A stretch of DNA of 64,000 nucleotides from a virus, in IMG/VR virus record IMGVR_UViG_3300036790_000408, positions 62,001 to 126,000 of that record; one strand, 5' to 3'. Numbering within the stretch: the first letter of the stretch is position 1; the number at the start of each line of letters is the position of its first letter. Below are positions 13,998-39,449 of the stretch, one piece after another. The notes beneath the pieces were generated by a model that saw nothing but the letters and a program-made list of their open reading frames with translations, had not been told where the DNA came from and searched no databases. The position numbers and the translations under genes were made by a program.

Positions 13998-14288
13998 TTA
14001 GGAGAAGAGAAAAATCTCGATTGTCTCACCGGTAAGGTTGCCGGAAAGCGCAGCAACATTCAGCGTAAAACCGGTGTTGGTGGGGCTGCTGATGAAGGCG
14101 ACAGCGGCCTCCTTCATGCAGGGAATAGCGATATAGGGTGTTGGAACCGGCTCCGTCCAAGTGACTGCAACGGTCGCTGTGCTGGCACTTCCGGCATACG
14201 TCGCCGAGACTGAGCCGATGCAAATCCTATCCGCGAGGTTCGGCAGCAAGCCGTCCGGCGAATAGGCGGTATGAAAAGCTACGCCCAT
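13998..14288 (-). CDS. Small beta-rich virion protein
   Basis: The gene encodes 96 residues. Its ATG overlaps the portal stop (TGATG). The protein is made of Thr/Ala/Val strands (SVSATYAGSASTATVAVTWT) with no charged core, resembling head decoration proteins. Function is inferred from position only. Confidence 0.5.
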   Translation of the reverse strand: MGVAFHTAYSPDGLLPNLADRICIGSVSATYAGSASTATVAVTWTEPVPTPYIAIPCMKEAAVAFISSPTNTGFTLNVAALSGNLTGETIEIFLFS

Positions 14289-22440: not shown

Positions 22441-22797
22441 ATGGAACTGGACGACGAGCCGCCACTCGAAACGGCTGTGCTTCATGTGGCGGCTTGCCGT
22501 CCGGCCATGATCTACGGTGTTCCATGGGTCATGATCGTGCCGGTGGCAGTTATATGCTTGGAAATCGAAATGGTTTTCGGCATCAAGTTGGCAGCCCTGA
22601 TCGACATACCGCTGGTCATCATCGCCTTTGCGACGGTGCTCTACGACTACAACGCTCCTGGAGTTTGGATGGTCTGGGCGCGCACCATCATGATCATCCT
22701 AGATGATCGCAAGTACGGCGGCGCATCAGTCGCCGCTCACCCAATCAAATCAGAACCGACTATGCCTAGGGGGATACCGTCCGATGCTTGGCGATAG
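22441..22797 (+). CDS. virB3: VirB3 inner-membrane protein
   Basis: The product has 118 residues with a CRPAMIYGVPW motif and two adjacent membrane helices (~25-65), then a WMVWARTIMIILDDRKYGG tail typical of VirB3/TrbD. It acts in the inner-membrane complex with VirB4. Its 3' end overlaps the virB4 start by 14 bases. Confidence 0.88.
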   Translation: MELDDEPPLETAVLHVAACRPAMIYGVPWVMIVPVAVICLEIEMVFGIKLAALIDIPLVIIAFATVLYDYNAPGVWMVWARTIMIILDDRKYGGASVAAHPIKSEPTMPRGIPSDAWR

Positions 22798-25267
22798 AGG
22801 TACATTCGAAAGCGCCCCTGACGACCTGCTGCCGTACTGGCAGCACATCAGCCCCGGCGTCGTGGCTCTGACCGACGCTACCCTCCTAGCCCAAGTGGTC
22901 ATGCCTGGCCTGCCGTTCGAACTGGAGTCGAATATCGAGCGAAACGCGCGACCCGCCTATTTCAACTCCCTCCTGCAGATGATCTCGGATGACAACGTCA
23001 CCATCCACATCAATTTCGTACACTCTGAAGTCGAGCCTAAGCTGGTCGAGCAGGACAATTTTCAGACCTCGTTCTCACGGGATGTGTACCGCAAATACGA
23101 ACGCATGACCTTCGGTGACAGGGTCATGGAGAACACCTGGATCATATCCATCCTGGTGCATCCGCGCATCCCGTTCGAGGGCGCGCTGACACGCCTCAAG
23201 CGCAAATGGATCTCGCCGCAGATCGGCATCAGCGAAGAGAGCGAGCGCCAAATCGAAGACGTCATGCAAAACCTGCAGATATGGCTCAATCGATATGGCG
23301 CGCGCCGACTTGGGTATCGCTACGGCGAGGGCCAGTACGAGGGCTGGATTTACACCGAGATCGGCGAAGCGCTGGCGCTGATCCTGACCTGCAAACACCG
23401 GATAATCCCACTGACCAGCGGGATGCTGGGTGGCTGCGTCTACATTGATCCGGTTGTGTTTCGCGGTTGGCTGGGGCGGCACACCTTCGCGGTGGATCAG
23501 CCGTCAGGCATCCACCGCGGAATGATATTCAGCTACAAGGATTACCCCACGAAGACCTTGCCAGGCATGTTCAACGGCTTGGTCGGTCTCGATTTCCCTG
23601 TCGTGATGACGCACAAAGGCCGGTTCCTGAACCGGATCTCGGCCGCCGCAAAGACGCAGTTGAAAGAGACGCAGATGTTGAACGCCAAAGATAAGGCGGT
23701 CTCACTGCTGGAAGGTCTCATCAAACTGCAAGACCAGATCGCCTCAAATGAGGTGGTCATGCTGACGCACCATTTCTCCCTAGCCGTCTATGGTGATCAT
23801 CGCACCTTGCCGTATCGAGCGACCCAGGTCAGCAACATCATCGCCAAGGGTGGCTCCGTGCTAGTGCGAGAGACGCGCGGCTTGATGGGGGCGTATTTTA
23901 CCCAGGTTCCCGGCGCCGACAAGATGTATATCACGCGCCCCGGCGCGGTGAGCAGCCAGAACATAGCGCGCATGTGCTCGCTGGAGGGATACCCGAAGGG
24001 AGCGGAGGAAGGCTACTGGGGCGATCCGACGATCCAGTTCAAGACCAATGGCGGCACAGTATACGACTGGCATGTCCATGTCGGAGAGGTTGGCCACACA
24101 GCCGTCTGGGGGCATACCGGCCTCGGTAAGTCGCTGTTCATAGACTTCATCGCCTGCGCCCTGCAGCGCACCATGAGTGCCACGGACACCTTGGTGATGT
24201 TCGACAAGGATATGGGGATGGCGATCACTGTGCTGGCCAATGGCGGCGAGTACGTTTGCCTACGCCGTGGCACGGCCAGCGGCTCCGCCCCACTCCGAGT
24301 CTATGACGATGAGCCACGCAACGTGGCGCACGTCGCTGCCTTGTTCAAGCGTCTCATCCTGCTGGACAACCGCGGCGAGATTGAGCCATGGGAGGAGGAC
24401 ATGCTGCACCGCGGCGTGGGCCGACAGCTCAAGCTTCCCGTGCATCTTAGGTCCATGTTGGCCGTCAAGGCATTCCTTGGCATCAGTCCGACTGGCGCCG
24501 GCGCGCGTTTCGCTAAGTGGTGCCGCGGCGGCGTCTACGGCTGGTTGTTCGACAATGACGAAGACCATATCACGGTTGGCCACGATACCCGCCTGTTGGG
24601 CGTCGACTTCACCGATCTTCTACCCAGTGAGGAGCGTCCAGATGACGGCTGTGCCGGAGCCATGGCGGCCGATCTGATGTTCCGGCTGAAGAATATCATG
24701 GATGGCCGCAGGTTCGTTGTGATGATCGATGAGTGCCGGTACTACGCCGACACCATCGCTGGCATCATGGAGGATTTCGCTCTCACCGGCCGCAAGAAGG
24801 AGTTGGTCCTGTTTCTGGCCGCGCAGCAGCCAGGGCACCTCCTGGAACGTCCGATGGGTCGATCGATCCTGGCGCAGGTCCAGACCGATTTCGCGCTGCC
24901 GGACACCAAGGCTGAGTGGAAGGATTACGGCAAGGAGGGGCGGGGCTACACCCCGGCCGAGTTCCGCTTCGTCAAGGCTCGTCGATCTGACACTGCCAAC
25001 GTCAATGCCGAGACCCGCGGCAAGCGTCAGGTGATGATCCGCCGCGACGGCGAGTCCGTCGTGGTACAGTTCGACTTGACCGGCATGGAAGATGAGATCG
25101 CCATCCTCTCGGGCCGTCCGGACACCTCCGCGCTGATGATGCATATCGTCGATGAATTGGGGCCTGACGCTCCGACAGATGACGTTGTCGCTGAGTTCAA
25201 AAAGCGCTGGAGGTCGGTGAAGCGCATCGCCCGCAAGGCCAAGGAAATCGAGGAGGAGTTGGTATGA
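22784..25267 (+). CDS. virB4: VirB4 secretion ATPase
   Basis: The product has 827 residues from ATG 22784, preceded by AGGGGGAT; an in-frame ATG at 22703 lies inside virB3 and is rejected. Walker A GHTGLGKS is at residues 443-450 and Walker B VVMIDECRYY has D649/E650. RKKELVLFLAAQQPG fits the motif C region. It powers pilus assembly and substrate transfer as a hexamer at the inner membrane. Confidence 0.95.
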   Translation: MLGDRGTFESAPDDLLPYWQHISPGVVALTDATLLAQVVMPGLPFELESNIERNARPAYFNSLLQMISDDNVTIHINFVHSEVEPKLVEQDNFQTSFSRDVYRKYERMTFGDRVMENTWIISILVHPRIPFEGALTRLKRKWISPQIGISEESERQIEDVMQNLQIWLNRYGARRLGYRYGEGQYEGWIYTEIGEALALILTCKHRIIPLTSGMLGGCVYIDPVVFRGWLGRHTFAVDQPSGIHRGMIFSYKDYPTKTLPGMFNGLVGLDFPVVMTHKGRFLNRISAAAKTQLKETQMLNAKDKAVSLLEGLIKLQDQIASNEVVMLTHHFSLAVYGDHRTLPYRATQVSNIIAKGGSVLVRETRGLMGAYFTQVPGADKMYITRPGAVSSQNIARMCSLEGYPKGAEEGYWGDPTIQFKTNGGTVYDWHVHVGEVGHTAVWGHTGLGKSLFIDFIACALQRTMSATDTLVMFDKDMGMAITVLANGGEYVCLRRGTASGSAPLRVYDDEPRNVAHVAALFKRLILLDNRGEIEPWEEDMLHRGVGRQLKLPVHLRSMLAVKAFLGISPTGAGARFAKWCRGGVYGWLFDNDEDHITVGHDTRLLGVDFTDLLPSEERPDDGCAGAMAADLMFRLKNIMDGRRFVVMIDECRYYADTIAGIMEDFALTGRKKELVLFLAAQQPGHLLERPMGRSILAQVQTDFALPDTKAEWKDYGKEGRGYTPAEFRFVKARRSDTANVNAETRGKRQVMIRRDGESVVVQFDLTGMEDEIAILSGRPDTSALMMHIVDELGPDAPTDDVVAEFKKRWRSVKRIARKAKEIEEELV

Positions 25268-26694
25268 AACGCCTATTGCTAGCCGGCGCCGCGGTGCTGT
25301 CGGCATGGGCCGTGCCGGCTCGCGCTCAAATCCCCGGACTGGGGAGCATACCAGGCCTTGGGGGGCTGGGTGGCGGCGCCGGTGGGATTACATGTTCCAA
25401 CTGTTACACCCAGACCAGCGGCACCACCAATGCCGCGACCGAAATTCTGAAAATGATCGCGCAAATCGAGCAGCTCATTCAGATCTTTACCATGCTGTCA
25501 GGCAATACAAGCGTCAACAGTATGGCAACGATCTTGAACAGCACTGCTGTTTTCAATCAGATGGGCAGCTTTGGGAATGTCCCGCTGATGATCCAGGGCG
25601 GCGCTGTAGGGTCGATGGGCGCGAGCTATCTGGCTGCCAATACAATCTTTATGCCGGGCGCCAGCAATATGCCGTACATGAACACGGTCGCTCTGATCGA
25701 GCAGCGCCAAGCGGCCTCCCTGGCTAATGTCCAAGGTATGGCGACATCGATGCTGGTGACCAGCAACACCATCCTGACCGGCTTGATGCAGCTTCAGGTT
25801 CTCATCGACGCTCAACCAAGCAACCAATTGATGGGTGGCATCAATTCCAGGATGTCAGCCTACAACGGCAACATCCAAACACAGCAGTACCAACTCGTGC
25901 AGATGCAGGCCATGGTCAACGCACAGAACCAGGTTTTCGAGCAGCAGCGGCGGCAAGCTGGGTTTTGTTCCTCGGTCAGTTGGTACAATGACCGGCAGTA
26001 CTACTATGGAGCCGGACCCACCGTATCAGGCTCCGGAACCGGTTGCGCCGGGGCCGGTGGCGGCCTGGTGGCGGGTAGCGCTGATTTACCCACGTCGGGC
26101 GCTGGCGGCGGCATCGTTTTGGCCAGCGCTGGGACTGGCGGTATTGGTAGCCTGGGATCACTCGGCACGGTCGGGCTTGCGGGGGGCGCTGGAGCTCTGT
26201 CTCTGGGGTCCACCGGCGCCACAAGCTACGTGCAGGGCGGAACGCCGCTGGCTGGATATGTGACCAACACCCAAGGGCCTCTGGCTGGATACATCTCCCA
26301 GCCCGATACGAGCGGCGCTGCCGGAACAACTGCCAATGCATCCTCAACGCTCCCAACTCCTCCAACTCCCCCGACCGGCACGGTCGATGCCACCGTATCT
26401 GATGGCGGCTGCGTCGAGACGTCAGACGGCAGTGACTGCGGCGGTTTGACCATGGATGACACCGCCAACTTCGACCCGACGGCGCCGGTCTCAGCCCTCC
26501 CGCCAACCGGGCCCAGCGTCGGCGACGCCGTCACTATCCTGCCTGGAGGTGATCCAACCGCCGGGATTTCGACCGACATCACGGTTTTCAATGACCTGCC
26601 GATACCAAAGCCAGCAGATATGGCTGGAATGGCCGTGGTGGCGCTCCTGAAGCCGCGACGAAGAAAGGATGAGCAGTTGAGGATGGCGGCATGA
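25264..26694 (+). CDS. virB5: VirB5-like pilus tip protein with long low-complexity tail
   Basis: The product has 476 residues. A signal peptide (AVPARA-Q) is followed by CSNCYTQ and a helical core (~55-240) like VirB5/TrbJ. From about residue 250 the sequence turns into Gly/Ser/Ala repeats, a Pro/Thr linker (TLPTPPTPPTGT) and an acidic region with DGGCVETSDGSDCGGLTMDD. VirB5 proteins are usually about 200-250 residues, so the C-terminal half is extra. It may be a surface-exposed adhesive extension of the pilus tip. Confidence 0.78.
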   Translation: MKRLLLAGAAVLSAWAVPARAQIPGLGSIPGLGGLGGGAGGITCSNCYTQTSGTTNAATEILKMIAQIEQLIQIFTMLSGNTSVNSMATILNSTAVFNQMGSFGNVPLMIQGGAVGSMGASYLAANTIFMPGASNMPYMNTVALIEQRQAASLANVQGMATSMLVTSNTILTGLMQLQVLIDAQPSNQLMGGINSRMSAYNGNIQTQQYQLVQMQAMVNAQNQVFEQQRRQAGFCSSVSWYNDRQYYYGAGPTVSGSGTGCAGAGGGLVAGSADLPTSGAGGGIVLASAGTGGIGSLGSLGTVGLAGGAGALSLGSTGATSYVQGGTPLAGYVTNTQGPLAGYISQPDTSGAAGTTANASSTLPTPPTPPTGTVDATVSDGGCVETSDGSDCGGLTMDDTANFDPTAPVSALPPTGPSVGDAVTILPGGDPTAGISTDITVFNDLPIPKPADMAGMAVVALLKPRRRKDEQLRMAA

Positions 26695-27029
26695 AAATCC
26701 TTGTGGCCGCAATGGGGTTGCTGGCCACAACCGCGACTTCTGCTGTGGCTGATCCGCCATGGCAAGTTCACCGCGAGCCCGGTCTGATCTGCATGACTAT
26801 GCCCAACAGAGGCGTCGCCATCCATTCCGTGCCGGCCCAGACATCAGACGTCATTGGCTATGCCGACTCGACTGTCTTCATGCCACTGCCGCGGCGCGCT
26901 GGAAACGGCTTCGTCATGATCGAGCGGCCAGATAGGGAACCCGGATGGGTGCCGGAGAAGGGCATGCAGCCCAAGCCCAATTGCACCCCGATGCTCATGT
27001 CGAACGGCGCCATCAACGAAGGGAACTGA
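26691..27029 (+). CDS. Secreted SH3-like small protein in the virB operon
   Basis: The product has 112 residues. It has a clear signal peptide (ending SAVADPP) and a short beta domain (GLICMTMPNRGVAIHSVPA, then EPGWVPEKG), reminiscent of bacterial SH3 domains. It overlaps virB5 (ATGA). No standard VirB protein occupies this slot; a periplasmic accessory role is inferred. Confidence 0.6.
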   Translation: MKILVAAMGLLATTATSAVADPPWQVHREPGLICMTMPNRGVAIHSVPAQTSDVIGYADSTVFMPLPRRAGNGFVMIERPDREPGWVPEKGMQPKPNCTPMLMSNGAINEGN

Positions 27030-27031
27030 CC

Positions 27032-27901
27032 GTGGGTGGCTTCACCTTCTATGAGCAACTCTACAGCGATTACAATTCGGTGCTCACATCCGCGTCGATG
27101 GCCGCTGCCAATCAGTTGATCGGCGGCATAGCGCCTTATCTCCTAGCCGCCTTGGTGCTCGTGGTCATCATCATCGGCGTCATCATGATGCTCGGGAGAT
27201 TGGACCAATCGACCGGCGTGCTGTGGATCGTTCGCACGGTTGCGGTGGCCAATCTTCTGACGTCGGCGATGTACACCCAGTGGGTGATGACCACATTCCT
27301 TACAACAATTCCGGGAGCCATATCGTCGCTGATCGGCGTCACCGGCGTAACCACCCCAGCGGCGACGTTCGATCATCTGCAGGCTGGCGTCGAGAAGATG
27401 ACTGCAACCCTCGACGCCGCGGCTGAATGGTGGGATGTCGGCTCTCAGTTCCGGATCACGGTAGCTTACTACTTCGCCACCGTACCGCTATTTCTCGGCT
27501 TCTGGCTAAGCATTATCACTATGGCATTCGTTTCTGTTGTTGCTCCGCTAGGAGCGGTTCTGCTATTATTCTACCTGTTCAACAACACCAGACACTACGC
27601 CGAAAGGTGGATCGGGAAACTGGTATCGTTGATGATTTTGCAACTGATAATAGCCATCCTGATGAACATCATCCTGACAGAGTTCGGAGTCTTTGCCGCA
27701 CGCATGAACGCCGCCGGCAATCTTGGCGACTTGGCTGAGCGTATCTCTGTCCTATGGGATATGGGCCTCGGCTTCTTCGTTGGGGTTGGCTTCCTCATTG
27801 GTGCACCGATCATTGCCGGCTACATCGGCGGCGGGCAAGTGACTGCCATGGTTGGCATTCCCGCCAGGATGGCCACTCTCGCTCTGGCGAGGCTGAAATG
27901 A
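27032..27901 (+). CDS. virB6: VirB6 polytopic membrane protein
   Basis: The product has 289 residues from GTG 27032, with GAAGGGA upstream; a longer ATG frame overlaps the previous gene and is not needed. There are at least five membrane helices, and the central loop holds the conserved tryptophan pair AAEWWDVG. VirB6 lies in the inner-membrane channel complex. It overlaps the next gene (ATGATG). Confidence 0.88.
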   Translation: MGGFTFYEQLYSDYNSVLTSASMAAANQLIGGIAPYLLAALVLVVIIIGVIMMLGRLDQSTGVLWIVRTVAVANLLTSAMYTQWVMTTFLTTIPGAISSLIGVTGVTTPAATFDHLQAGVEKMTATLDAAAEWWDVGSQFRITVAYYFATVPLFLGFWLSIITMAFVSVVAPLGAVLLLFYLFNNTRHYAERWIGKLVSLMILQLIIAILMNIILTEFGVFAARMNAAGNLGDLAERISVLWDMGLGFFVGVGFLIGAPIIAGYIGGGQVTAMVGIPARMATLALARLK

Positions 27902-28122
27902 TGCATCCGGTGGCTGAATTCTTTCTGCGCGGATTATGGAACTTTGCCAGGGCGGTGCTGCTGTTTTGCACCTTCCTGGCCAAGCCGGTCGCGCTCGTGT
28001 TCGCCTTGATCGCCCTCAAGGCGGCAACCCATGGTCAACCGCTTCTGCTCATCGTCTGCATCGTCATCGGAGCCTTACTCTTCGCAGTAAGAGACTGGAT
28101 CCGGTTCTCTCGCTGGAACTAA
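27898..28122 (+). CDS. Small membrane protein in the virB operon
   Basis: The product has 74 residues. The start ATG overlaps the virB6 stop; a second ATG follows directly. Two membrane helices (ARAVLLFCTFLAKPVALVFALIAL and LLLIVCIVIGALLFAVRDW) are present. It is an extra component with no Agrobacterium counterpart; function is unknown. Confidence 0.62.
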   Translation: MMHPVAEFFLRGLWNFARAVLLFCTFLAKPVALVFALIALKAATHGQPLLLIVCIVIGALLFAVRDWIRFSRWN

Positions 28123-28136
28123 AGGAAAGAAACTAC

Positions 28137-28310
28137 ATGTCAACTACAGCAAAAATTTCTATCGCTATGGTCCTCCTGGTGCTCGCCGGATGCAGCGGCG
28201 AGACGCCACCACCATCATGCAAGGGGCCGTGGACCAGCTTTCCGCAGCCAATGCCAAGTATCGACGGGGCGCCGCCAGCGCCCGAACGACAAACCATGGT
28301 ACAACACTGA
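28137..28310 (+). CDS. virB7: VirB7-like lipoprotein
   Basis: The product has 57 residues. It has a lipoprotein signal with lipobox LAGC (Cys19) and a short Pro-rich mature part with one more cysteine (PPPSCKGPW). The ribosome-binding site AAAGGAAAG lies ~7 bases upstream. Position before virB8 matches VirB7, which anchors the outer-membrane core with VirB9 and VirB10. The stop overlaps the virB8 start (TGATG). Confidence 0.8.
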   Translation: MSTTAKISIAMVLLVLAGCSGETPPPSCKGPWTSFPQPMPSIDGAPPAPERQTMVQH

Positions 28311-29047
28311 TGTGGAACCCGTTCAAACGCACCATCGTGCTCCCGCAGGCGCAAGCGATCACCAGGACACCGCTGACCCGGCAGGAGCAGCAAGTGCGCA
28401 CTATGGTCGCGCGGGAAATGAAAAGAAATCTCCGCACGCGACAGGGATTACTGCTGGTCTGCGTCGTCTCCATGGCCACGAACACCGCGCTGGCTATCGC
28501 CCTGGCCGGCACGGTGCCGCTGATCCGCATCGTGCCCATGCTGCTGCAAACCAGGAAGGATGGATCGACCCGCGTTGAGCCCGTGATGTCGATGATGTCG
28601 GTCGAGGACGCGCAGGATCCGGTCAAGCGCGCAACCATGTGGCAGTACGTGGAATGGCGGGAAGGGTTCACCCGCGACACGGCCAAGTTCCGCTTCGACT
28701 TCGTCGTGGCGCTCAGCGCCGGCGATGTCGGTGAGGCTTACTCAAAATGGTATGCCTATACCAACCCAGAAAGCCCGCAGGCAAAGTACTCCAAAAACAA
28801 CGGCACAGTCACCATCACATACGACACGTCTGATTATTCGTCTGATCCGAACATCTTCGTGGTGAACTTCTATCGTGAAGTGCATGTGCCGGGACAATTG
28901 CCCTCCAGGTCTCACTGGTCTGCCTCCATCCACTACAAGCTGATGCAAGCCATCCCAGCGATCGAACGCGGCACCATCAACCCAAGCGCTCTCAAGGTCA
29001 CCGACTACGTGCTGACCGAGACGGATGATCCAGGAACCAAGTCATGA
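28310..29047 (+). CDS. virB8: VirB8 inner-membrane assembly factor
   Basis: The product has 245 residues: a short cytoplasmic N-terminus, one membrane helix (~45-68) and a periplasmic NTF2-like domain with VEWREGFTRDTAKFRFDFV and SKNNGTVTITYDT. The start is ATG 28310 overlapping the virB7 stop. An upstream in-frame ATG inside virB7 is rejected. Confidence 0.9.
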   Translation: MWNPFKRTIVLPQAQAITRTPLTRQEQQVRTMVAREMKRNLRTRQGLLLVCVVSMATNTALAIALAGTVPLIRIVPMLLQTRKDGSTRVEPVMSMMSVEDAQDPVKRATMWQYVEWREGFTRDTAKFRFDFVVALSAGDVGEAYSKWYAYTNPESPQAKYSKNNGTVTITYDTSDYSSDPNIFVVNFYREVHVPGQLPSRSHWSASIHYKLMQAIPAIERGTINPSALKVTDYVLTETDDPGTKS

Positions 29048-29946
29048 GGAAGCTTCTGCTTGCCGGCGCAGCGCTCGCCGCCCTGTCATCATCTGCCTTA
29101 GCGGCCACGGAATGCAAGCCGACCAAGGAAGACAGCCGGGTATGCACCGTGCCCTACAACCCCAATCAGGTCGTCTCGATCTGGGGCACGGTGCGTTCCG
29201 TCGTGGTCGTCGAATTCGGCAAGACCGAACAGATAACCCACGTCTCGGCGGGGGATATCGATGCCCTGAAGCCAGAAAACATGGGTAGCAATGTTTTGTC
29301 TCTCAGGCCAGTGCCGACAATCACGGTGGCTCAGCAAATACAGCCAGTCGCCGTAACAACGTCGCTGCCGGACGGCAGTAATCGCCTCTACATGATCGAG
29401 TTCAATGAACGTCCAGGCGGCTCCATCCTGCCTGGCACCAATGGCGCTCAATTTCTGGTCCGCTTCACCTACCCAGGCGACGTTGCGGCCGCGGCGGCAG
29501 AAGCGTGGCGGGTGAAGGAGCGTGCCAAGATCGAGCATGAGATGGAGGCCAAGCTCGGCACCATCGGGCGCGGCAGCATATCCGGCCAGAACGGATACGC
29601 CTGCGACTATATCTACCAGACCGATCCCAAGCATCACCCAGTCTTCGTGCCAACTCGGGTGTGCGATGACGGGCAAAAAACCTACATCCTGTTCCCCGGC
29701 AACACGCCGCTTCCGGCTATCAGCGTCGATGGACCGGACGGTCAACCGATGATCACCGATGGATCGTTTGACAGCATCGGCTCGTACTACGTCATCAACC
29801 GGGTGGTGCGGCATATCTATCTGCGCTCAGGCGACCTCGTGGTGTGCGTCTGGAAACAGAGCGAGCCCAACCCTGCGGGCTTCAATCCAGGGACGAATAC
29901 CTCAGTGCGCGGCGTCGAACGCACGATCAAGGGATCGGATCAATGA
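29044..29946 (+). CDS. virB9: VirB9 outer-membrane core protein
   Basis: The product has 300 residues. A signal peptide (SSSALAA) is followed by the N-terminal beta domain (VPYNPNQVVSIWGTVRSVVV) and a C-terminal VirB7/10-binding domain (ACDYIYQTD, VWKQSEPNPAGFNPGTNT). It overlaps both neighbours by four bases. It forms the ring of the core complex with VirB7 and VirB10. Confidence 0.9.
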   Translation: MRKLLLAGAALAALSSSALAATECKPTKEDSRVCTVPYNPNQVVSIWGTVRSVVVVEFGKTEQITHVSAGDIDALKPENMGSNVLSLRPVPTITVAQQIQPVAVTTSLPDGSNRLYMIEFNERPGGSILPGTNGAQFLVRFTYPGDVAAAAAEAWRVKERAKIEHEMEAKLGTIGRGSISGQNGYACDYIYQTDPKHHPVFVPTRVCDDGQKTYILFPGNTPLPAISVDGPDGQPMITDGSFDSIGSYYVINRVVRHIYLRSGDLVVCVWKQSEPNPAGFNPGTNTSVRGVERTIKGSDQ

Positions 29947-30986
29947 GCGGGATGCAGGATGATGGTATCGGCGCAGCAAAATCTCCGCCGGGGCCATGGA
30001 AGTACATCTTCATCGCCTTTCTGTGCTTCTGCGCCGTGGCATTTATCTTCTGGCTATTCAAATCCAGCGGTTACCTGCATCAGCACGCCGAGAAGCCAAT
30101 TCAGTCGACCGACGTCGCTCACGCTGATGCTTACCAGGGCCCTCCAGACCTTAAGGAAAATGCTGCATTCAGGGCCAGCGTGCCGCCAACGCCAAGGCCG
30201 CAGCCGCCACCACCGATCGACGAGTCCTCAGTGTGGGCTGGCAAGACCGTGTGGAGCCCGCAGGGGCTACAGCAATCACTTCAGCCGCCGGGTGCCACAC
30301 CACAGGAGAACCCTCAGGCACAAGGCGGCGGCGCCGGTCAGGGCGATAGCCTGCTGCACGGCACCACCGTCGCCTACAAGATCCCGCACCCGATGTTCAC
30401 CGTCCCCGAGGGGAAGGTCATATCGTGCAAGCAGATCACCAAGCTGAGCACCGCCTCGGGTGGCAATGTTCTGGTCACCGCCATTGTCGACGAGGATGTC
30501 TGGGGAATTGGCAATCAGGTTATCCTGATGAACAAGGGCACCGAGGTCATCGGCGAGGTTGCTCATGGGATGATCAATGGGCTGGATCGCCTGCAGGTGG
30601 TCTGGCGGCGCGGACGCACGCCGCCGCCCTACAACATCCGCTTCACGCTCGACGCGCCGGCCGCCGGGCCACTTGGCGAGGGCGGGCTGGACGGCGATAT
30701 CAACCGCCACGAATGGCAGAAAATTAAGGGTGTGTTGCTGTTTACCCTGCTCGACTGGGGCGGCGCCATCGCTCAGTCGGCCTTGGCCGCGCGCGGCACA
30801 ACCAGCATCAACCTAGGGAGCACCAATACCCAATCCACCGCGGAAGCTGCAGGGACGATCCTGCTACAATCGATGATCAATATTCCCGACACGATCACTC
30901 GCAACCAAGGAAAATCCTGCTCGATCTTCATGGCAGGCGATGTGGATTTCTCCAACGTCTATGGATTGAAGGAAGTAAGAAAATGA
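29943..30986 (+). CDS. virB10: VirB10 core protein
   Basis: The product has 347 residues. It has a membrane helix near residues 19-38, a Pro-rich periplasmic linker (RPQPPPPIDESS), then the beta-barrel domain (GTTVAYKIPHPMFTVPEGKV, AHGMINGLDRLQVVWRRG) and a C-terminal SIFMAGDVDFS. It spans from inner to outer membrane and gates the channel. The start overlaps the virB9 stop (ATGA). Confidence 0.92.
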   Translation: MSGMQDDGIGAAKSPPGPWKYIFIAFLCFCAVAFIFWLFKSSGYLHQHAEKPIQSTDVAHADAYQGPPDLKENAAFRASVPPTPRPQPPPPIDESSVWAGKTVWSPQGLQQSLQPPGATPQENPQAQGGGAGQGDSLLHGTTVAYKIPHPMFTVPEGKVISCKQITKLSTASGGNVLVTAIVDEDVWGIGNQVILMNKGTEVIGEVAHGMINGLDRLQVVWRRGRTPPPYNIRFTLDAPAAGPLGEGGLDGDINRHEWQKIKGVLLFTLLDWGGAIAQSALAARGTTSINLGSTNTQSTAEAAGTILLQSMINIPDTITRNQGKSCSIFMAGDVDFSNVYGLKEVRK

Positions 30987-31225
30987 GCATGTCAGACAAC
31001 TATAAGCAGAACCCGACCATCAGTGCCCGTTGGTCCGACCTTAGGCATGGGCGCATCCACCTCTCGAAGTGGGAGTTGGTGATCGCCTTCGTGCTCACCC
31101 TGCTCCTATTCGTGAACCTGTTCTTTAATCAGGGGATCGGATCCCTGATCTTCTTCATCATCATGGGAACCGCCACAATGATGGCGTGGAAAACCCGACG
31201 TGATGCCCGCAAGGGCACGCAGTGA
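30983..31225 (+). CDS. Small membrane protein between virB10 and virB11
   Basis: The product has 80 residues with two close membrane helices (LVIAFVLTLLLFVNLFF and IGSLIFFIIMGTATMM) and charged ends. It is coupled by overlaps to virB10 and virB11. It is an additional inner-membrane component, function unknown. Confidence 0.62.
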   Translation: MSMSDNYKQNPTISARWSDLRHGRIHLSKWELVIAFVLTLLLFVNLFFNQGIGSLIFFIIMGTATMMAWKTRRDARKGTQ

Positions 31226-32271
31226 CCACGGCCACACTACAGCTCCAGCATATGTTGGAGCCCTTCTTTCCGTTGCTTGCCGACGGCACAGAAGACATCG
31301 CGATCAACCGCCCAAGAGAGGCCTGGGTGCGTCGCTACGGCGTCTGGACACCGTTCGACGTACCGGACATGGACTATGACACTCTGCTGGACATGACGAT
31401 CATGGCGGCGTCGATTTCTCAGCAGGAAACCAACGCACGCAACCCGCTCTTGTTCACGGACATCCCGATGGACAAGGGACCAGCATTGCGGCTGATGGCC
31501 ATTCAACCGCCGGCGGTCGAGGGCGGCCTTATGTCCTGGACCCTCCGCCAACCTAGCGGCAAAGTCCACCCGATCGAGACGATGACCAAGCGCTACAAGA
31601 CAGACCGCTGGAACAAGTGGGAGCGCAGGAAGGAGAACAAGAACCACGACGCAGCCTTGGCGCTCTACGACGCTGGGGAGTTGACAGCATTTTTGACCCA
31701 CCTGGTGCAGCAGCGGTACAACATCATCTGCTGCGGCGCGACCGGCGCCGGCAAGACCGAGGCCGGGAACACGATCCTCTCGGCCATCCCTGATAGCGAC
31801 CGAATCATCACCATCGAGAACACCAGGGAGTACCGGCTGAAACAGCCAAACTGCCTGCATCTGCTCTACTCGCAGGGCGGTATGGGCGTCGCCGATGTCT
31901 CCCAGGCCGACCTGCAGCGCGCCAGCCTACGGTGCCGGCCAACCCGCGTGCTGGTACAGGAGATTTTGGACGCCGACGCAGCGGCCACCTACATCATGGA
32001 AGTGGTCTCGGGTCACCCTGGCTCGATCACCACCATCCACGGCGAGAACCCGTCCCAGGCGTTCAAGCGTCTCTTCGGCATGGTCATGGCATCGGCCGGT
32101 GGGGCCGCGCAGCAGGTCGAGAATGTCCTCTCGATGCTGGAGAGTACGGTGGACTGCATCATCCCATTCCGCAACGACGCCTCGGTGTTCTCGGTCGGTG
32201 AGGTATTCTTCGCTCCGGCCGCACGCCGCCGCGGAGAAATGCTCCGCTCCCTGCTGACGGACGTCGATTGA
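31222..32271 (+). CDS. virB11: VirB11 traffic ATPase
   Basis: The product has 349 residues with a GTG start overlapping the previous stop (GTGA). Walker A GATGAGKT is at residues 172-179, followed by an Asp box-like IITIENTREYRL, SLRCRPTRVLVQEI and a His box GHPGSITTIHGENP. It is a hexameric ATPase that switches between pilus building and DNA transfer. A charged insert (KRYKTDRWNKWERRKENKNH) precedes the ATPase core. Confidence 0.93.
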   Translation: MTTATLQLQHMLEPFFPLLADGTEDIAINRPREAWVRRYGVWTPFDVPDMDYDTLLDMTIMAASISQQETNARNPLLFTDIPMDKGPALRLMAIQPPAVEGGLMSWTLRQPSGKVHPIETMTKRYKTDRWNKWERRKENKNHDAALALYDAGELTAFLTHLVQQRYNIICCGATGAGKTEAGNTILSAIPDSDRIITIENTREYRLKQPNCLHLLYSQGGMGVADVSQADLQRASLRCRPTRVLVQEILDADAAATYIMEVVSGHPGSITTIHGENPSQAFKRLFGMVMASAGGAAQQVENVLSMLESTVDCIIPFRNDASVFSVGEVFFAPAARRRGEMLRSLLTDVD

Positions 32272-32669
32272 TCCGCCGGTTGCCGTGGACGCTGCGGGCC
32301 ACCCTGGTCTTCGCAGCGTGCATCCTGACCTTCGTCCTATGGACTGGGGCAGCGTCAGTTCTCTTCATCAACCTCATGAAATTCGGGAGATACTATCCGT
32401 ATGACTATCCGCCGACTTATTGGCAGTGGTGGGCCTACTTACTCGACCCAGAGTGGCCTCCCAGCATCAACAAGTGGCTCGCCCTCTCCGGACTCGTGCC
32501 GCTATTCCCTCCGGGTGCCTTCCTTGCGCGCCGGCTACTTGATCGCCGGTCCGTATCGTATTCTGCCACAGGCCCCCGACCACTCTACGGCGAAAGTCAT
32601 CCAGCCACTCGATCCGAAATGCAGAGCGGCGGCATCATCTGGAAAAAGAAACTACCGGGGCAACGATAA
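32268..32669 (+). CDS. VirD4 N-terminal membrane part, encoded as a separate gene
   Basis: The product has 133 residues with a TTG start inside the virB11 stop. It has two membrane helices (ATLVFAACILTFVLWTGAA and LALSGLVPLFPPGAFLA), then GPRPLYGESHPATRSEMQSG, which matches the short segment that follows the membrane part in normal VirD4/TraG coupling proteins. The gene ends TAATG, the ATG being the start of the ATPase gene. A slip of -1 at AAAAAG (32643-32648) would also join the two frames. Confidence 0.7.
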   Translation: MIRRLPWTLRATLVFAACILTFVLWTGAASVLFINLMKFGRYYPYDYPPTYWQWWAYLLDPEWPPSINKWLALSGLVPLFPPGAFLARRLLDRRSVSYSATGPRPLYGESHPATRSEMQSGGIIWKKKLPGQR

Positions 32670-34105
32670 TGTGGGCTGGCGATGTCATCATCGGGCGCGA
32701 CGAAAACAGCGAATACGGCACCCTGCCTGGGCACGAGCACGTCGCCCTCTACGCCAAGACCCGGAGCGGGAAGACCACCAGCAGCGTCATCCCGAACGCT
32801 TTCAATTTCCCCGGCTCCATGGTCGTGCTCGATGTGCGGCGCGAAATTTTCGCGGCCACAGCCGGCCATAGAGCCTTCAACATGGGGCAGGAGGTCTACC
32901 TTCTTGATCCGGCATCACCGAACGGTCGGTCTCACCGGTGGAACCCGCTCGACATTGTCGACCGTACGTCGGTGGAGAGGTTTGACCAGATATCCCGTAT
33001 CGCCCTGATGATGTTCCCAGATCACACCGGCTCCAGCGGCACCACGAACACCGATAAGTTCTGGGATCCGGCCGGGCGCTCCGCGTACACGGCGGTTGCC
33101 GCACTGATCGCCGAGACACCCGAGTGGCAACTGAACCACGCTATGATCCTTCGGATGTTCTCCGGCGCCGGGTTGGATATGGTCATCGAGGCGGTCAATG
33201 CCCGCCGGGCCCAGAGCGCCAAACCACCCTACAGCCAGAATGTGATCGACGGTCTGTCCGGGTACATGTCAGGCGACACTCAGCTTGTGGACGGCATCCG
33301 AAAGACTGTGGAGGTCAAGCTTCAGGCATGGTTCAACCACAAGATTGCTGCGGCGACATCAGGCAGCGACTTCGACCTGCGCGACCTGCGCCGACGCCCC
33401 ATGACCGTCTATGTCGGCATCTCCCCCGGCAATATGGCGCGCTGGAGGAGCTACCTCGCCCTCTTTTTCGAACAACTCGTCAACCTGAATACCGACGTCA
33501 CTCCGCAGGAAGATCCGACTCTCCAAATCCCCCTACTGGTGATGATGGATGAGTTCGCCCGGCTAGGCCGGATGCAGACCATCGCCGAGGCCGCCCAGTA
33601 CGCCGCCGGTTATGGGGTTCGGTTCTTCTACGTGATCCAGAACAAGCGACAGTTGGAAGCGATCTATGGCGACGCCGCCAGCGCTGACATCTTCGACAAC
33701 ACCGGGGCTGAGATCGTTTTCGGCACCAATGACCTGAAAACCACTGAGGAAGTCAGCCGGCGCTTTGGTGACGACACGGTCAATATCCGCACCCAAAACA
33801 GACCTAGGTATTTCTCCTGGGCCAACTGGAAAAAGCAAACCGAGGCTGAGCACCCCCACCGCCGCCCCTATCTGCTACCACAGGAGGTCGCCCGACTGCC
33901 GCGGAACAAGCAAATCGTCCTGCGCGCCGGCATGCAGGGGTCCATCACCGACCGCATTCCATGGTTCGAGGATCCGGCCATGCGCCGCCTCAAGCTTGAT
34001 CCGCCCCAGATCCCGATCCTGGATTGGAAGATCGATCCGGACGATGGGAAAACTAAGCTGATCAAACCAAAACCAAGAGACGCCCAGACCGAGACCAAAG
34101 GATAG
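32669..34105 (+). CDS. virD4: VirD4 coupling ATPase lacking its membrane anchor
   Basis: The product has 478 residues, starting MWAGDVIIGRDE. Walker A YAKTRSGKTTS and Walker B LLVMMDEFARLGRM are clear, with VIQNKRQLEAIYG and TGAEIVFGTNDLKTTEEVS as in T4SS coupling proteins. It would bring the relaxase-DNA complex to the VirB channel. Normal VirD4 has its membrane helices in the same chain; here they are in the preceding gene, so the two products must assemble or be fused by frameshift. Confidence 0.9.
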   Translation: MWAGDVIIGRDENSEYGTLPGHEHVALYAKTRSGKTTSSVIPNAFNFPGSMVVLDVRREIFAATAGHRAFNMGQEVYLLDPASPNGRSHRWNPLDIVDRTSVERFDQISRIALMMFPDHTGSSGTTNTDKFWDPAGRSAYTAVAALIAETPEWQLNHAMILRMFSGAGLDMVIEAVNARRAQSAKPPYSQNVIDGLSGYMSGDTQLVDGIRKTVEVKLQAWFNHKIAAATSGSDFDLRDLRRRPMTVYVGISPGNMARWRSYLALFFEQLVNLNTDVTPQEDPTLQIPLLVMMDEFARLGRMQTIAEAAQYAAGYGVRFFYVIQNKRQLEAIYGDAASADIFDNTGAEIVFGTNDLKTTEEVSRRFGDDTVNIRTQNRPRYFSWANWKKQTEAEHPHRRPYLLPQEVARLPRNKQIVLRAGMQGSITDRIPWFEDPAMRRLKLDPPQIPILDWKIDPDDGKTKLIKPKPRDAQTETKG

Positions 34106-34138
34106 TCAGACTCGGAAGCGTCTCGATATCATCGGCGG

Positions 34139-34537
34139 ATGGACCGGAAGCTTTGCTCCTGCGGACGGGTAAAATACGGCATTGGGCGGCTCTGCGCCTT
34201 GTGCCAGCAGCAGAAGCGCAGCCTCAAGGTCAAGCCCACCAGGAAGCCCCGCAAGGGCAGTAACCCAAAGCATTTAGAGTGGATCAGAACCCTCCCCTGC
34301 ATCGTCGATGGGTGCAGAGGAGGCGGTGATCCGGCGCATGTGCGGATGCCTGGAACGGGTGGTGGGATGAAACTCAAACCACCCGATGTCTGGACCGTCC
34401 CATTATGTCGAGAGCATCACCGAGAGCAACACGACATCGGGCACCCCGCCTTCGAGAGGAAATACTGCATCGACTTCCGGCGCTCAGCCATGGAGTTGGC
34501 GGCCCTGTCACCATACCAAGGGGAAGAGATCGCGTGA
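34139..34537 (+). CDS. DUF968-like HNH-type nuclease candidate
   Basis: The product has 132 residues. An N-terminal zinc-finger-like part (CSCGRVKYGIGRLCALC) is followed by a second Cys/His region (PCIVDGCRG, DPAHVRM, VPLCREHHREQH), which is the DUF968/HNH pattern seen in phage recombination nucleases. It is the first cargo gene after virD4. Its stop overlaps the next start (GTGA). Confidence 0.65.
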   Translation: MDRKLCSCGRVKYGIGRLCALCQQQKRSLKVKPTRKPRKGSNPKHLEWIRTLPCIVDGCRGGGDPAHVRMPGTGGGMKLKPPDVWTVPLCREHHREQHDIGHPAFERKYCIDFRRSAMELAALSPYQGEEIA

Positions 34538-35136
34538 ATTACATGGATCAGGATATGGGCGGCGAAGGCATGCACCCACACCGGCATAATCCAGGTGGGA
34601 AATCCAAACCGGCCTGGGATAAACGGTCCATCGTCTCCGCGGTATTCTCCGACTGCGACCGCTACCGCTACGAGTTGATCGAAACGTGGGATCCGCGCGG
34701 CCCCAAGGTGATGTTCCTGATGATGAACCCATCGGTGGCAGGACTAGAGCACTCCGACCCAACGCTCGTTCGTACCGGGAACTATGCTCGCAAGTGGGGC
34801 TATGGGTGTCAGATGGTCGGCAATGTCCACGCCTATCGCGTCACTGATAGCAAGGAGCTATTGAAGGTCGCTGACCCGATAGGACCGGCCAACGATATTG
34901 CTATTCTGCGCATGGCGGGGGAGTGCTCCGAGATCATCCTCGGGTACGGCATGCCGCCCGGTCAACCGAGACAGGTGGCAATCGCGAGACAACAATCTAA
35001 AAGAATTATTGAAGTTCTCAGGAACGCTGGAGCGAACATAAAGTATCTGGCATTATGTAAAGACGGAATAACACCAAGACATCCGCTGTATCTCAAGGGG
35101 GATCTACTCCCTCAACCCTACCTTGTGGAGGCATGA
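34534..35136 (+). CDS. DUF1643 family protein
   Basis: The product has 200 residues from GTG 34534 (ATG 34543 is an alternative). RYELIETWDPRGPKVMFLMM, NPSVAGLEHSDPTLVRTGNY and GNVHAYRVTDSKELLK match DUF1643, a family frequent in phages and mobile elements with no proven activity. An AAGGGGAAG ribosome-binding site precedes the GTG. Confidence 0.78.
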   Translation: MNYMDQDMGGEGMHPHRHNPGGKSKPAWDKRSIVSAVFSDCDRYRYELIETWDPRGPKVMFLMMNPSVAGLEHSDPTLVRTGNYARKWGYGCQMVGNVHAYRVTDSKELLKVADPIGPANDIAILRMAGECSEIILGYGMPPGQPRQVAIARQQSKRIIEVLRNAGANIKYLALCKDGITPRHPLYLKGDLLPQPYLVEA

Positions 35137-35481
35137 ATGCCATTCGACAACACACCAGACAGGCTTGAGACATCCATAACGACTTTGCTGAGAGGGACCA
35201 AGGAACGCATCAAACACCATGAGAATTGGTGCCAAGGCGTACTACGGATGCGTGGGAGCGCTATACCAAAGTACTGCTTACTTGGAGCGATGGATGTAGC
35301 TAAAATTGAGATCAGATCATCATGGGATGATGTGTGGGCGGCCACGGAAGTCGTCCGTAATGTCGCGATAAAACGTGGATATAATTCCCCAGCCGAGTTT
35401 AATGATGCGGATGAAACCACCCACACAACAATCATGGATGCTCTCGACGAGGCCATCTGGACCTCCATGGAGGTGATATGA
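35137..35481 (+). CDS. DUF6197-like hypothetical protein
   Basis: The product has 114 residues. The pattern WCQGVLRMR, PKYCLLGAMDVAK and AEFNDADETTHTTIMDALDE resembles small DUF6197 proteins that are common in phages and plasmids. It begins right after the DUF1643 stop. No activity is known. Confidence 0.55.
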   Translation: MPFDNTPDRLETSITTLLRGTKERIKHHENWCQGVLRMRGSAIPKYCLLGAMDVAKIEIRSSWDDVWAATEVVRNVAIKRGYNSPAEFNDADETTHTTIMDALDEAIWTSMEVI

Positions 35482-35894
35482 AACCTCTGTTCGGTATCTC
35501 ATCTCTGGTGCTGATGATCGTCGCCGGTCATCCGGCACCGGTAGCAATTCCACCCGATCCGATGATCATCCGGGTACACCTCCCATCGGGCTATCCTGAT
35601 CCAGACGGCAAGATACAGGCGTGGATGGTCCGTCAAAAAAATATGAACGGCGGCTCATGCTGCGATCCAAATGACCACACCGCCATTCTCGAGAACGAAC
35701 AATGGAAGATCGACGTCGACCATTATAGCGTCAAGGTAAATGGAGTTTGGGTCAGCATCCCACCCTACACCTTACTCCTGCATCGAGACACCGATCCAAA
35801 CCCGACCGGCAAGGGAGTGCTTTGGAGCGGCTTCAATAGGAATATGCCAGGACAAGTTGTCATCTACTGCTTTGCCCCAGGCACCGGCACATGA
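35478..35894 (+). CDS. Secreted hypothetical protein
   Basis: The product has 138 residues with a putative signal peptide at the N-terminus (LFGISSLVLMIVAGHPAPVA). The mature part contains GGSCCDPNDHTA and WVSIPPYTLLLH. It overlaps both neighbours by four bases. No family was recognised. Confidence 0.6.
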   Translation: MKPLFGISSLVLMIVAGHPAPVAIPPDPMIIRVHLPSGYPDPDGKIQAWMVRQKNMNGGSCCDPNDHTAILENEQWKIDVDHYSVKVNGVWVSIPPYTLLLHRDTDPNPTGKGVLWSGFNRNMPGQVVIYCFAPGTGT

Positions 35895-36067
35895 GCCTCT
35901 CTCCAGAGAATAAGGAATGGATCCGGGACTGCATGATGCAGCGCAAGCGGGTCTTGAAGGGTGAGTACGTCCACTGGTGCCCCGAGTGGGATGAGCTGCC
36001 GATGGATGAAACCTGCATGGAGTGGCCGTGCGGCTGCTCCGTCAGTGACGCAGCCCTTCGGAAATAG
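35891..36067 (+). CDS. Small Cys-rich protein, last gene of the plus operon
   Basis: The product has 58 residues with five Cys, including WPCGCS. The ATG overlaps the upstream stop (ATGA). Its 3' end overlaps the relaxase 3' end by 26 bases tail-to-tail. Confidence 0.5.
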   Translation: MSLSPENKEWIRDCMMQRKRVLKGEYVHWCPEWDELPMDETCMEWPCGCSVSDAALRK

Positions 36068-39000
36068 ACCGCGACTGCGCACGCTCGTGCGCCGGATACG
36101 CTCGCTCCATCGTCACGTTCATCTGTCGGCCCTGCACCATGTTCCTGATGTGAGAATAGGTCATCGGTGGCGTTCGGTTCACCGTTTGGTGCAGGGTCTT
36201 CAACGCTCCGCGGCGGATCTCGGTCAGCCGGTCGAGTAGGCCGAGGGCCGAGTCCATCTTCGTCTTGGTGGCGAACTGCTTGGCGACATTGGCCCATTTG
36301 TCGTCGAGAGTGATGTCGTGCAGATCATTGATCGGCCGCGACTCCTTGACCGCCAGTCGCTCGGCCGACTCGCTAGTGATCAGCCAGGAGCGCTGCTGAT
36401 GCCGGGTGTTGCCGGTGTACGCCTGCGCGCCAGTGACGCCATGGCTGCCGGATGGCAGTGCTAGGATGTGCTCGCCGACCGATGAGCCCTGCGCCGTATG
36501 GATGGTCGTGGCGTCGCCGTAGGCCAGCATAACGCGACCAGAGTTCACGTGCTTCGAGGTCAACGAACTCCACTCCACCCGCCCCACGACACCGTCTGAG
36601 TTGCGAAGGAGAAGTCCCCTCTGTCGATCGGCGTCGACCACATCGAGTACCGTGCCGTTGCGACCGATCGACCGCATCGTGCCATTTGGCAGCTCGGCCT
36701 TGGTGGACTGGAATAGCCGCACCTTGTCACCGACCGCGATCGATAGGAGATAATTGCGATCCCCGTCGGTGGCCTTGATCCCCATGACCTTGTCAGGCCC
36801 GACCAAACTCATTTCCCGCCTAGCTTCCCTGACCGCCATGCCGATCTGATGCGCGTCGGAATTGGTTGGAGCGCTGATCGTTGGAGCGTGCCCGGTTTCT
36901 TTGAGGCGCTCAATGTAGAGCTTGGCGGTGCGCTCGATCACGCCGGCCCGGCCGCCGTAAGCCATCTCCGCGGTGCCGTCGTCGCGCTTCATACTCAGCG
37001 CTTGGTGCGCCTCGCCACGCCGGAGCAGATTGACGATCGAGAGCTCTCGCTCAGTTTTCTGGCGGACGGTCGTCAGGATCTCAGGCACCTGGGATGGGCC
37101 TAGGGCGCGACGGGACAGCTCAATGATCGCTCCAGCCTCGATGCTGGCGCACTGCTTGTCGTCGCCCAGCGCTACCACGGTGAAACCAAGACGGTCCTGC
37201 GCGCGCATAAGATGAAGGGCCTGCCGAGTACCGAGCAGGCCCCATTCGTCGATGGCGATGACGGTATTAGTGCCGGCGCGTATGATGCCCTTATCGAACC
37301 CCTCCATCAAGACCGAGAAAGCTTTGACGTTGCGCTTGTCGATGCCAGCGCCACGCAGATCGTCCGCCTGACGCCAAGCCAGTGAAGCACCAAGAACTTC
37401 CCGTCCCTGCTCTTTCCAGGCGGCTACAAGCGGTTTCAGGAGCGTCGTTTTACCGCTGCCTGCAGCGCCGACAACAACTCCGAACCTGGCACCAGAAGCA
37501 AGGCGCTCCATTGCGGCTTTTTGGTTTTTGCCGTGCTCACTGGCGAAGTCCAGATCAGGGAACTGAGCAATTTTTCGCTCAAGAAGGGAGCGAGGAATGG
37601 CTCCGGTTTTATCGCCGGCCGCGGCGCGCGCGAGGCGCACGAACTCTCGCTCATCCGTCTCATGGAGGGAGGTTGTGACACTGGTGTACCGTTGGTTCCG
37701 CTCCTGGCCCCATACCAGGTTCGTTAACTCACCATACTGGAGAACGCCGCTTTTTACCATTTCATGGGTAACATGTCTGATATCCGTCAGATTGTTGGCG
37801 CCATGCTCAATCAGCCCGCGCAGCGCGGCGAGGCGCAAATCCCAGTGTGGTACAACTGCACTATGCTCAAGTTTTTTTTCGAGCCATGGCAATGCAGTCT
37901 CGTATGCCTTCTTGTAGCGCTGCTCCGGCGTCAGTGGCGGGAGTTGCGGGCCGATCAGTTGAAAGGTTCGAGGGGTCCAGCCGACTTCCTTGGCTTGCAC
38001 CTTCCATCCGTCGAAGTCAGCCAGATCGTCCTTGCCTCCCTTGACCTTCTGGTCGAGGCTTTGGGTGGCTCGCTTGATCCGCTCTTGACGCTGAGGCTCC
38101 GCCAAATCCTCCCAGACCTCACCCTTCTGCCGGGTGTAGAGCATAGCTATCGCTTCGCCGGCGTTGGTTCGCTTGGAGAATATGATCCGCAGGTCATCTG
38201 ATATGGCGGTCATGCGGGCGGCACCGGTGCGCTCATCCAACACCACCTCGAAACCAACTTCGCGCAACTTGGTCGCCAGCCGCGCCTGATAGTATCCATC
38301 CGCCTCGAAAATGAAGCCCTTGATCGCTTCGGTGTCGAGCGAGCCAACGTGGCCGTTGGGGCAAAAGACGGCATTGGGGATCAGGAAATGGGTATGGATA
38401 CCAGGATCCCCGCGAACCTCCTTGTCCGGCTCAATCACCACTTGGCCGTTCCGCACCGACACCATGGTCTTGCGGGCGGTATGGTGGGTGAACTCCAGCC
38501 ACGCGACATAGCCGGCCAGGAAGCCATCCTTGCCGCCGTCGCCGAGTCTGGCGTGGCCAACCTCCGAGGCGATGTACCCGACCGCCTCACGCGCTGCCTC
38601 GATATGCGCGTTCATGAGCATGGCCTGCTCAACCGGTCCGGCTAGGGCCCAGGCCACTGAAACGCTCTTGTCCGGCGTCGGGCAGAAATCATAGGAGCCG
38701 ATCGGCGTGCTCCATTTGCGCTCGCCGGTCTTCGGGTTGACCGGCATCTGACGTTCGGTCGCGTACTTCTTGTCGGCGATCTGGCTGCCATCAGCCTTAC
38801 GCCCCGCCAATAGAGCCGCGACCTCGTCCTGCCGCAGTGGCCTGGTGTTGTCGATGCCAAGCCCCACCAGCACCGACGGATGAATGTCTGGGCGCACGAT
38901 GGCGAGGTGACCGACCTCGTCAGCTTTCGACTCTTTGACATCGACCCGGTACATCTCACGATTGAGAGCCACGTCCCACTGCTTCATGGTGCGGCTCATC

Positions 39001-39449
39001 ATCTGCTCGATCTCTCGGGACGACTTGCCGATCAGATGGTCGGGACCGGGATCGATCTCCGGTATGCCGTGCAGCGCACGGGCCTCTGGGGGGATGTCGG
39101 CGCCCCCGCTCTCCCGGTGCACCGCGGCGTTGATACCGGCCTGGAAGTCGCTCCGCAGCCTGTCCTCGACCTCCTGCACCGACATCGCGGCATCAGGCGC
39201 CGCGGCATAGGCGGCAATCAGATCGACATTCGGCGCCACGCGATCATCCAGCCACATATGAACGTGGTCATCGATCTTCTGCTCCCGAATGATCTCGTGC
39301 GCCTCTTCGGCGGTGGTCGCCGCCATGCCGCGCTCGTAGTACGCGGCGACCCTGGAGCGCTCCTGGCTCATGGTCAGGTTCATGAGGTGGTTGACCATCC
39401 CCGAGGTAGATGACGGCGCGCCACCGGCGATTTTCTGGAAGCCGATCAT
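36042..39449 (-). CDS. MobF-type conjugative relaxase-helicase
   Basis: The product has 1135 residues. A tyrosine pair in RVAAYYERG (37-38) is the likely nicking site. The metal-binding HUH motif IHTHFLIPNA has H352/H354, and YDFCPTPDKSVSVAWAL precedes it. Walker A GAAGSGKTT (661-669) opens a RecD-like helicase that continues with AIDEWGLLG and IHTAQGSS. It would nick oriT, unwind and pilot DNA to VirD4. About 170 residues, including an acidic helical stretch, separate the tyrosines from the rest of the relaxase core, much more than in TrwC or TraI. Confidence 0.92.
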   Translation of the reverse strand: MIGFQKIAGGAPSSTSGMVNHLMNLTMSQERSRVAAYYERGMAATTAEEAHEIIREQKIDDHVHMWLDDRVAPNVDLIAAYAAAPDAAMSVQEVEDRLRSDFQAGINAAVHRESGGADIPPEARALHGIPEIDPGPDHLIGKSSREIEQMMSRTMKQWDVALNREMYRVDVKESKADEVGHLAIVRPDIHPSVLVGLGIDNTRPLRQDEVAALLAGRKADGSQIADKKYATERQMPVNPKTGERKWSTPIGSYDFCPTPDKSVSVAWALAGPVEQAMLMNAHIEAAREAVGYIASEVGHARLGDGGKDGFLAGYVAWLEFTHHTARKTMVSVRNGQVVIEPDKEVRGDPGIHTHFLIPNAVFCPNGHVGSLDTEAIKGFIFEADGYYQARLATKLREVGFEVVLDERTGAARMTAISDDLRIIFSKRTNAGEAIAMLYTRQKGEVWEDLAEPQRQERIKRATQSLDQKVKGGKDDLADFDGWKVQAKEVGWTPRTFQLIGPQLPPLTPEQRYKKAYETALPWLEKKLEHSAVVPHWDLRLAALRGLIEHGANNLTDIRHVTHEMVKSGVLQYGELTNLVWGQERNQRYTSVTTSLHETDEREFVRLARAAAGDKTGAIPRSLLERKIAQFPDLDFASEHGKNQKAAMERLASGARFGVVVGAAGSGKTTLLKPLVAAWKEQGREVLGASLAWRQADDLRGAGIDKRNVKAFSVLMEGFDKGIIRAGTNTVIAIDEWGLLGTRQALHLMRAQDRLGFTVVALGDDKQCASIEAGAIIELSRRALGPSQVPEILTTVRQKTERELSIVNLLRRGEAHQALSMKRDDGTAEMAYGGRAGVIERTAKLYIERLKETGHAPTISAPTNSDAHQIGMAVREARREMSLVGPDKVMGIKATDGDRNYLLSIAVGDKVRLFQSTKAELPNGTMRSIGRNGTVLDVVDADRQRGLLLRNSDGVVGRVEWSSLTSKHVNSGRVMLAYGDATTIHTAQGSSVGEHILALPSGSHGVTGAQAYTGNTRHQQRSWLITSESAERLAVKESRPINDLHDITLDDKWANVAKQFATKTKMDSALGLLDRLTEIRRGALKTLHQTVNRTPPMTYSHIRNMVQGRQMNVTMERAYPAHERAQSRSISEGLRH

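Follow-up and report, generated by a model that had tools for sequence, protein, structure and literature searches.

The window analysed here is a stretch of 64,000 nucleotides, corresponding to positions 62001–126000 of the IMG/VR record IMGVR_UViG_3300036790_000408, which is 134,436 bp in length and classed as viral. It features a VirB/VirD4 T4SS and a MOBF relaxase. As described in an earlier note on this DNA, the coupling protein VirD4, the motor that delivers DNA to the conjugation channel, is encoded by two consecutive genes joined at a TAATG junction, designated virD4-N and virD4-C. The locus comprises the following features (positions refer to the window):

21497–31225, plus strand: rest of the VirB operon with lytic transglycosylase, virB4, virB5-like, virB6, virB8, virB9 and virB10 (Pfam matches)
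31222–32271, plus strand: virB11 ATPase (PF00437, 8.4e-24), 4-base overlap (TTGA) with the membrane piece
32268–32669, plus strand: virD4-N, a 133-aa membrane piece with TM helices and the cytosolic tail PLYGESHPATRSEMQSGGII, aligning to the N-terminus of unsplit VirD4
32641–32651, plus strand: GGAAAAAGAAA run, the −1 slip site proposed earlier, probably not functional; not conserved in the split relatives G840 and G872, no downstream structure
32667–32671, plus strand: TAATG stop-start junction with one-base overlap, identical in G840 and G872
32669–34105, plus strand: virD4-C, a 478-aa soluble coupling-protein ATPase without TMD (PF02534, 1.1e-84; PF12696, 8.8e-26)
36042–39449, minus strand: MOBF TrwC-type relaxase, convergent to the VirB/D operon (PF08751, 3e-33; AAA_30)

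The reading frame of virD4-C is −1 relative to that of virD4-N. The ATG of the junction is its earliest in-frame start codon (ATG, GTG or TTG), and upstream the frame is open only from 32543. The start codon of virD4-N is a TTG within the TTGA overlap with the virB11 stop, and it is supported by unsplit relatives, in which virD4 starts in the same kind of 4-base overlap with virB11. VirB10/VirB11 and the relaxase adjoin virD4 in an order that is the same in relatives, and the convergent relaxase arrangement is also present beside unsplit relatives. A DUF968/HNH nuclease-like gene (34139–34537) directly follows virD4-C and is itself followed by a DUF1643 gene (34405–35136); in Skermanella pSR-4, an HNH gene sits between virB10 and virB11.

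Phage morphogenesis genes (82–20175, minus strand) adjoin the T4SS and relaxase genes (21497–39449) within this single 134-kb record, which could represent either a conjugative phage-plasmid or a contig of chimeric origin. The following were identified among them:

82–2463, minus strand: tape measure
4268–6223, minus strand: tail sheath
14288–15745, minus strand: portal
16283–17851, minus strand: terminase large subunit

A ParB-like domain fused to a DNA methyltransferase is encoded at 18820–20175 and at 53229–54485 (phrog_498, 1.7e-111; MT-A70 with a ParB-like part). A 1530-aa ORF at 48103–52695 (minus strand) yielded no Pfam or PHROG match.

Properties of the two gene products

Taken alone, virD4-C is a full T4SS-DNA_transf protein (PF02534, 1.1e-84). 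It carries the TraG/TraD C-terminal motif as well as Walker A and B motifs (KTRSGKTT and LVMMDEF), and the fold of its AlphaFold model (pLDDT 82.5) matches Cag5 (8dol) and TrwB (1e9r/1e9s). Simple hydropathy detected no TM segment in the ATPase halves, and the 478-aa product has no TMD in the same polypeptide.

No Pfam or NCBIfam match was obtained for virD4-N alone. The protein can be aligned to the N-terminal part of single-chain VirD4s, and the alignment takes in the linker motif HGES..AT..E....GI. The membrane piece retains a conserved tail, YGES..A.R..M..GGI. The short segment expected ahead of the nucleotide-binding domain was found as claimed: in unsplit VirD4s, it is the linker to which the tail PLYGESHPATRSEMQSG can be aligned. 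Two membrane helices had also been assigned to the 133-aa product. When examined by simple hydropathy, the first is clear at residues 16–34, but the second (about 67–90) stays under the threshold of 1.4 in the window copy; both are clear in the membrane piece of G872. A sequence comparison of the VirD4 N-terminus with solved structures gave no match.

An AlphaFold model of the unsplit relative L018 (pLDDT 84) was used to locate the cut. The model features TM helices at 13–41 and 67–97, a helix at 109–114, a strand at 118–120, a loop at 121–127, a strand at 128–132 and the Walker A strand at 148–152. The cut position maps to the loop 121–127 between the strands 118–120 and 128–132, all of high pLDDT. 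Residues 96–127 of L018 align with TrwB from residue 76 on, which is within the cytosolic domain crystallised without the TMD. As modelled, the cut lies in a surface loop within the cytosolic domain, and the segment kept as the conserved tail of the membrane piece is ordered and belongs to this domain in the unsplit relative. Given the match of residues 96–127 to the crystallised domain of TrwB, the membrane piece is predicted to carry, besides the anchor, the helix and the strand with which the motor domain begins.

Split and unsplit relatives

The two closest sequences found (54–57% ATPase identity) belong to the genomes G840 and G872 of a single genus, found in a family sample that also contained Acetobacteraceae genomes, and both show the same split. 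In G840, contig L126 harbours virB11 and a cellulase-like gene, together with a 114-aa membrane ORF that ends in ...LVYGESGWANREQMDKGGISTSRKLP before its stop codon and is followed by TAATG and MQQHPVLIGKTGG, while contig L125 starts with the C-half of the ATPase, which is 57% identical to the window ATPase. The order in the split relatives is a 114-aa membrane ORF with the end ...KGGISTSRKLP, TAATG and then a soluble ATPase. In G872, the membrane ORF and a complete 487-aa ATPase (54% identical to that of the window) are located on one contig with the same TAATG. According to ORF lists, TrwC-like relaxase ORFs adjoin the split copies in both genomes. The cellulase-like genes between virB11 and the membrane piece (L126, 379–1803, minus strand; L132, 11349–13199, minus strand) look like GH5 by eye.

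G840 and G872 are near-copies of each other (343 of 360 bases are the same in the membrane region), and the split is hence seen in two independent lineages. Identities between the window and G840/G872 are 44% for VirB11, 53–57% for the ATPase and about 31% for the membrane piece. The values for VirB11 and the ATPase indicate that the split has lasted through long divergence. Between the two split lineages, the tail (residues 103–124) is identical at 11/21 positions, compared to 27/85 for the remaining membrane piece. A KLP motif ends the membrane pieces of both lineages just before the junction, which is consistent with one origin of the split. In a tree of 60 sequences, the split sequences form one clade (support 100/99) adjoining unsplit Acetobacteraceae and Skermanella sequences; long branches, of which the tree program warns, leave some doubt about the monophyly.

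Comparison of G840 and G872 yielded 22 synonymous and 8 non-synonymous codons in the C-half of the ATPase (dN 0.018, dS 0.143, dN/dS about 0.13). For the membrane piece, 6 synonymous and 10 non-synonymous codons were counted (dN 0.045, dS 0.082); with so few changes, the dN/dS of about 0.55 is weak evidence of constraint. These values suggest purifying selection on the split genes, with a weaker signal for the membrane piece.

About 100 relatives encode virD4 in a single ORF, including plasmid relatives from Azospirillum, Lichenicola, Skermanella, Rhodovastum and Roseomonas. An open upstream frame turned out to be no proof of an unsplit gene: G872 has 204 open codons there despite its split. 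For this reason, the linker motif and TM hydropathy, both required in the frame of the ATPase, were used instead to score 109 distinct loci. By this criterion, 89 of the 109 were unsplit automatically, and 14 of the other 20 were in frame by eye. The remaining loci are four that are too remote to judge (22–24% identity), the contig-end fragment L125 and L129 (the same locus as L132), which is split. On genome contigs, for which a profile of diverse VirD4s was too divergent, a tighter VirD4 profile retrieved 80 loci, all single-ORF where judged. Class-level genome sampling added remote relatives only. In Acidiphilium multivorum pACMV2 (L009, 3447–4544), a resolvase/Tn3 transposase insertion has broken virD4 behind its N-terminal part; this is a decayed case and not the conserved split, and the remnant is annotated as 'hypothetical protein'.

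Megablast of the locus and the 24 kb around it against plasmids gave no match. Single-protein scans of viral and genome contigs confirmed no close ATPase relatives, and no further copies were recovered from IMG/VR, whether the query was the G840 C-half, the paired alignments, VirB11 or the relaxase. The membrane pieces gave only weak tblastn matches in plasmids, either to unsplit VirD4s or to unrelated places. The basis for the split is hence narrow, with only two independent lineages found, both on draft or metagenomic contigs, compared to about 100 unsplit relatives. According to the earlier note, homologues that are all unsplit would speak against the split; a search for relatives found it shared by G840 and G872, though most are indeed unsplit.

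Probable origin and function of the split VirD4

With most relatives being single-ORF and the window record being a metagenomic contig, a sequencing or assembly indel in a normal virD4 might be suspected. However, the same split and the same TAATG occur at the homologous position of two further assemblies, which random error cannot produce, making an indel extremely unlikely. The earlier note had also offered recoding by a −1 slip. Programmed −1 frameshifting of the ribosome, or slippage during transcription, would then act at the A-run and fuse both ORFs into one VirD4. The run GGAAAAAGAAA is located 16 bases ahead of the stop, and a −1 slip there does give an open fused frame (...IIWKKETTGATIMWAGDVIIGR), whose product would carry the junction peptide ...KETTGATIMWAGDVIIGR. 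We discarded this openness as support, because the −1 frame of GC-rich relatives is equally open without a slippery run and openness alone thus means little. In addition, G AAA AAG departs from the strict X_XXY_YYZ heptamer pattern, of which no in-frame example is present in the window copy, G840 or G872, and a run of five As is short for slippage. No stimulatory RNA structure was detected downstream (z +0.92; 169 of 200 shuffles fold as well), where the RNA shows less structure than its shuffled versions. G840 and G872 lack the A-run before the same junction and conserve the stop-start overlap instead; neither an indel nor −1 frameshifting therefore explains the split, and we regard recoding as very improbable.

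A split membrane ATPase is also the expected product of inactivation. The split could then be a pseudogene frameshift in an element that does not conjugate or borrows VirD4 in trans, and the cellulase-like genes between virB11 and the membrane piece in G840 and G872 would fit such decay. Against this, both halves are intact and conserved over 43–47% divergence, the Walker A/B motifs are present, and the neighbouring virB genes and the relaxase are intact. Synonymous changes dominate in the ATPase, and this substitution pattern between G840 and G872 disfavours pseudogenisation, to which we assign a very low probability. Alternatively, the two products may work independently: the membrane piece would be a T4SS component in its own right, and VirB proteins would recruit the ATPase without its help. 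Coupling proteins that lack a TMD can indeed associate peripherally with the membrane in the presence of T4SS proteins, as described for TrwBdeltaN70 (PMC7434980). However, the alignment of the membrane piece to the VirD4 N-terminus extends over the cytosolic tail, its best conserved part, so that independent function appears very unlikely.

As judged from these comparisons, the split of virD4 is real and heritable, is located at the same place in distant relatives and is not a sequencing error; its recurrence at a homologous position in two other genomes argues against chance. VirD4 has probably been split by evolution into two cistrons, predicted to be translationally coupled, whose products would assemble non-covalently into a two-subunit coupling protein. 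Such a two-part protein was among the proposals of the earlier note, and conservation of the split and of the TAATG junction in diverged genomes supports it. The ancestral VirD4 would have been cut within its cytosolic domain, at a loop. As a result, the cistron in front would have become a small membrane protein with TM helices, a periplasmic loop and a cytosolic tail, the latter representing the first helix and strand of the ancestor's cytosolic domain, and the downstream cistron a soluble nucleotide-binding/all-alpha ATPase. A ribosome ending at the TAA would re-initiate at the overlapping ATG, so that the output of both cistrons stays coupled. SD complementarity lies at the same spacing before both ATPase starts and is weak to moderate (−4.9 and −3.8 kcal/mol). 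These signals are similar to those of virB9 (−4.3) and virB11 (−4.1) and not exceptional against random sites (10th percentile −6.0). Together, the stop-start overlap and the moderate SD complementarity suggest translational coupling. Within the membrane piece, conservation is highest in the tail. In the simplest interpretation, this tail still docks on the ATPase, now non-covalently; this docking would rebuild the full coupling protein at the T4SS channel and allow it to function in conjugation.

A subfamily of T4CPs without TMD is recognised in reviews, with TraJ/TraI of pIP501 as its type (PMC7434980). This Enterococcus system is the nearest precedent: a TMD-less VirD4-like ATPase is accompanied by a small membrane protein encoded directly upstream, which is the proposed membrane recruiter. 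Both features, a coupling ATPase without TMD and a small membrane protein directly upstream, are found here as well. However, pIP501 has a Gram-positive MPF type, whereas the window encodes a Gram-negative VirB/VirD4 T4SS with a MOBF relaxase. Here, the halves can still be recognised as parts of a single ancestral VirD4 that was cut at a loop, and they meet at a TAATG junction. The likeness drawn is one of architecture, and the two products would act in the manner of the pIP501 pair. Read together, the two products have the same domain order as single-chain VirD4/TrwB T4CPs (R388 TrwB, Helicobacter pylori Cag5), in which TMD and NBD are not on separate polypeptides as they are here. TraG-TraJ pairs likewise combine a T4CP with a neighbouring membrane partner of about 200 aa, but there the T4CP has retained its own TMD, and its partner TraJ contains as many as five TM helices (PMC7434980). 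In the literature searched, we found no description of a VirD4 divided between two genes in a Gram-negative.

The TMD of VirD4/TrwB is regarded as indispensable in cis, for location and oligomerisation as well as for transfer, and TMD-deleted mutants of TrwB, PcfC and MobB fail (PMC7431656, PMC7434980). We consider the case evenly balanced for a stable, natural split of a Gram-negative VirD4, in which anchor and motor are joined non-covalently via the strand/helix tail, the motor could attach to the T4SS and detach again, and the window copy lies on an element with phage morphogenesis genes. A Gram-negative VirD4 whose parts have been separated and retained through long divergence provides a natural system to ask about the role of the TMD. 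It also bears on reversible recruitment of the motor and on the assembly of full-length coupling proteins, which are hard to purify, and it marks the exact cut point at which VirD4 tolerates opening.
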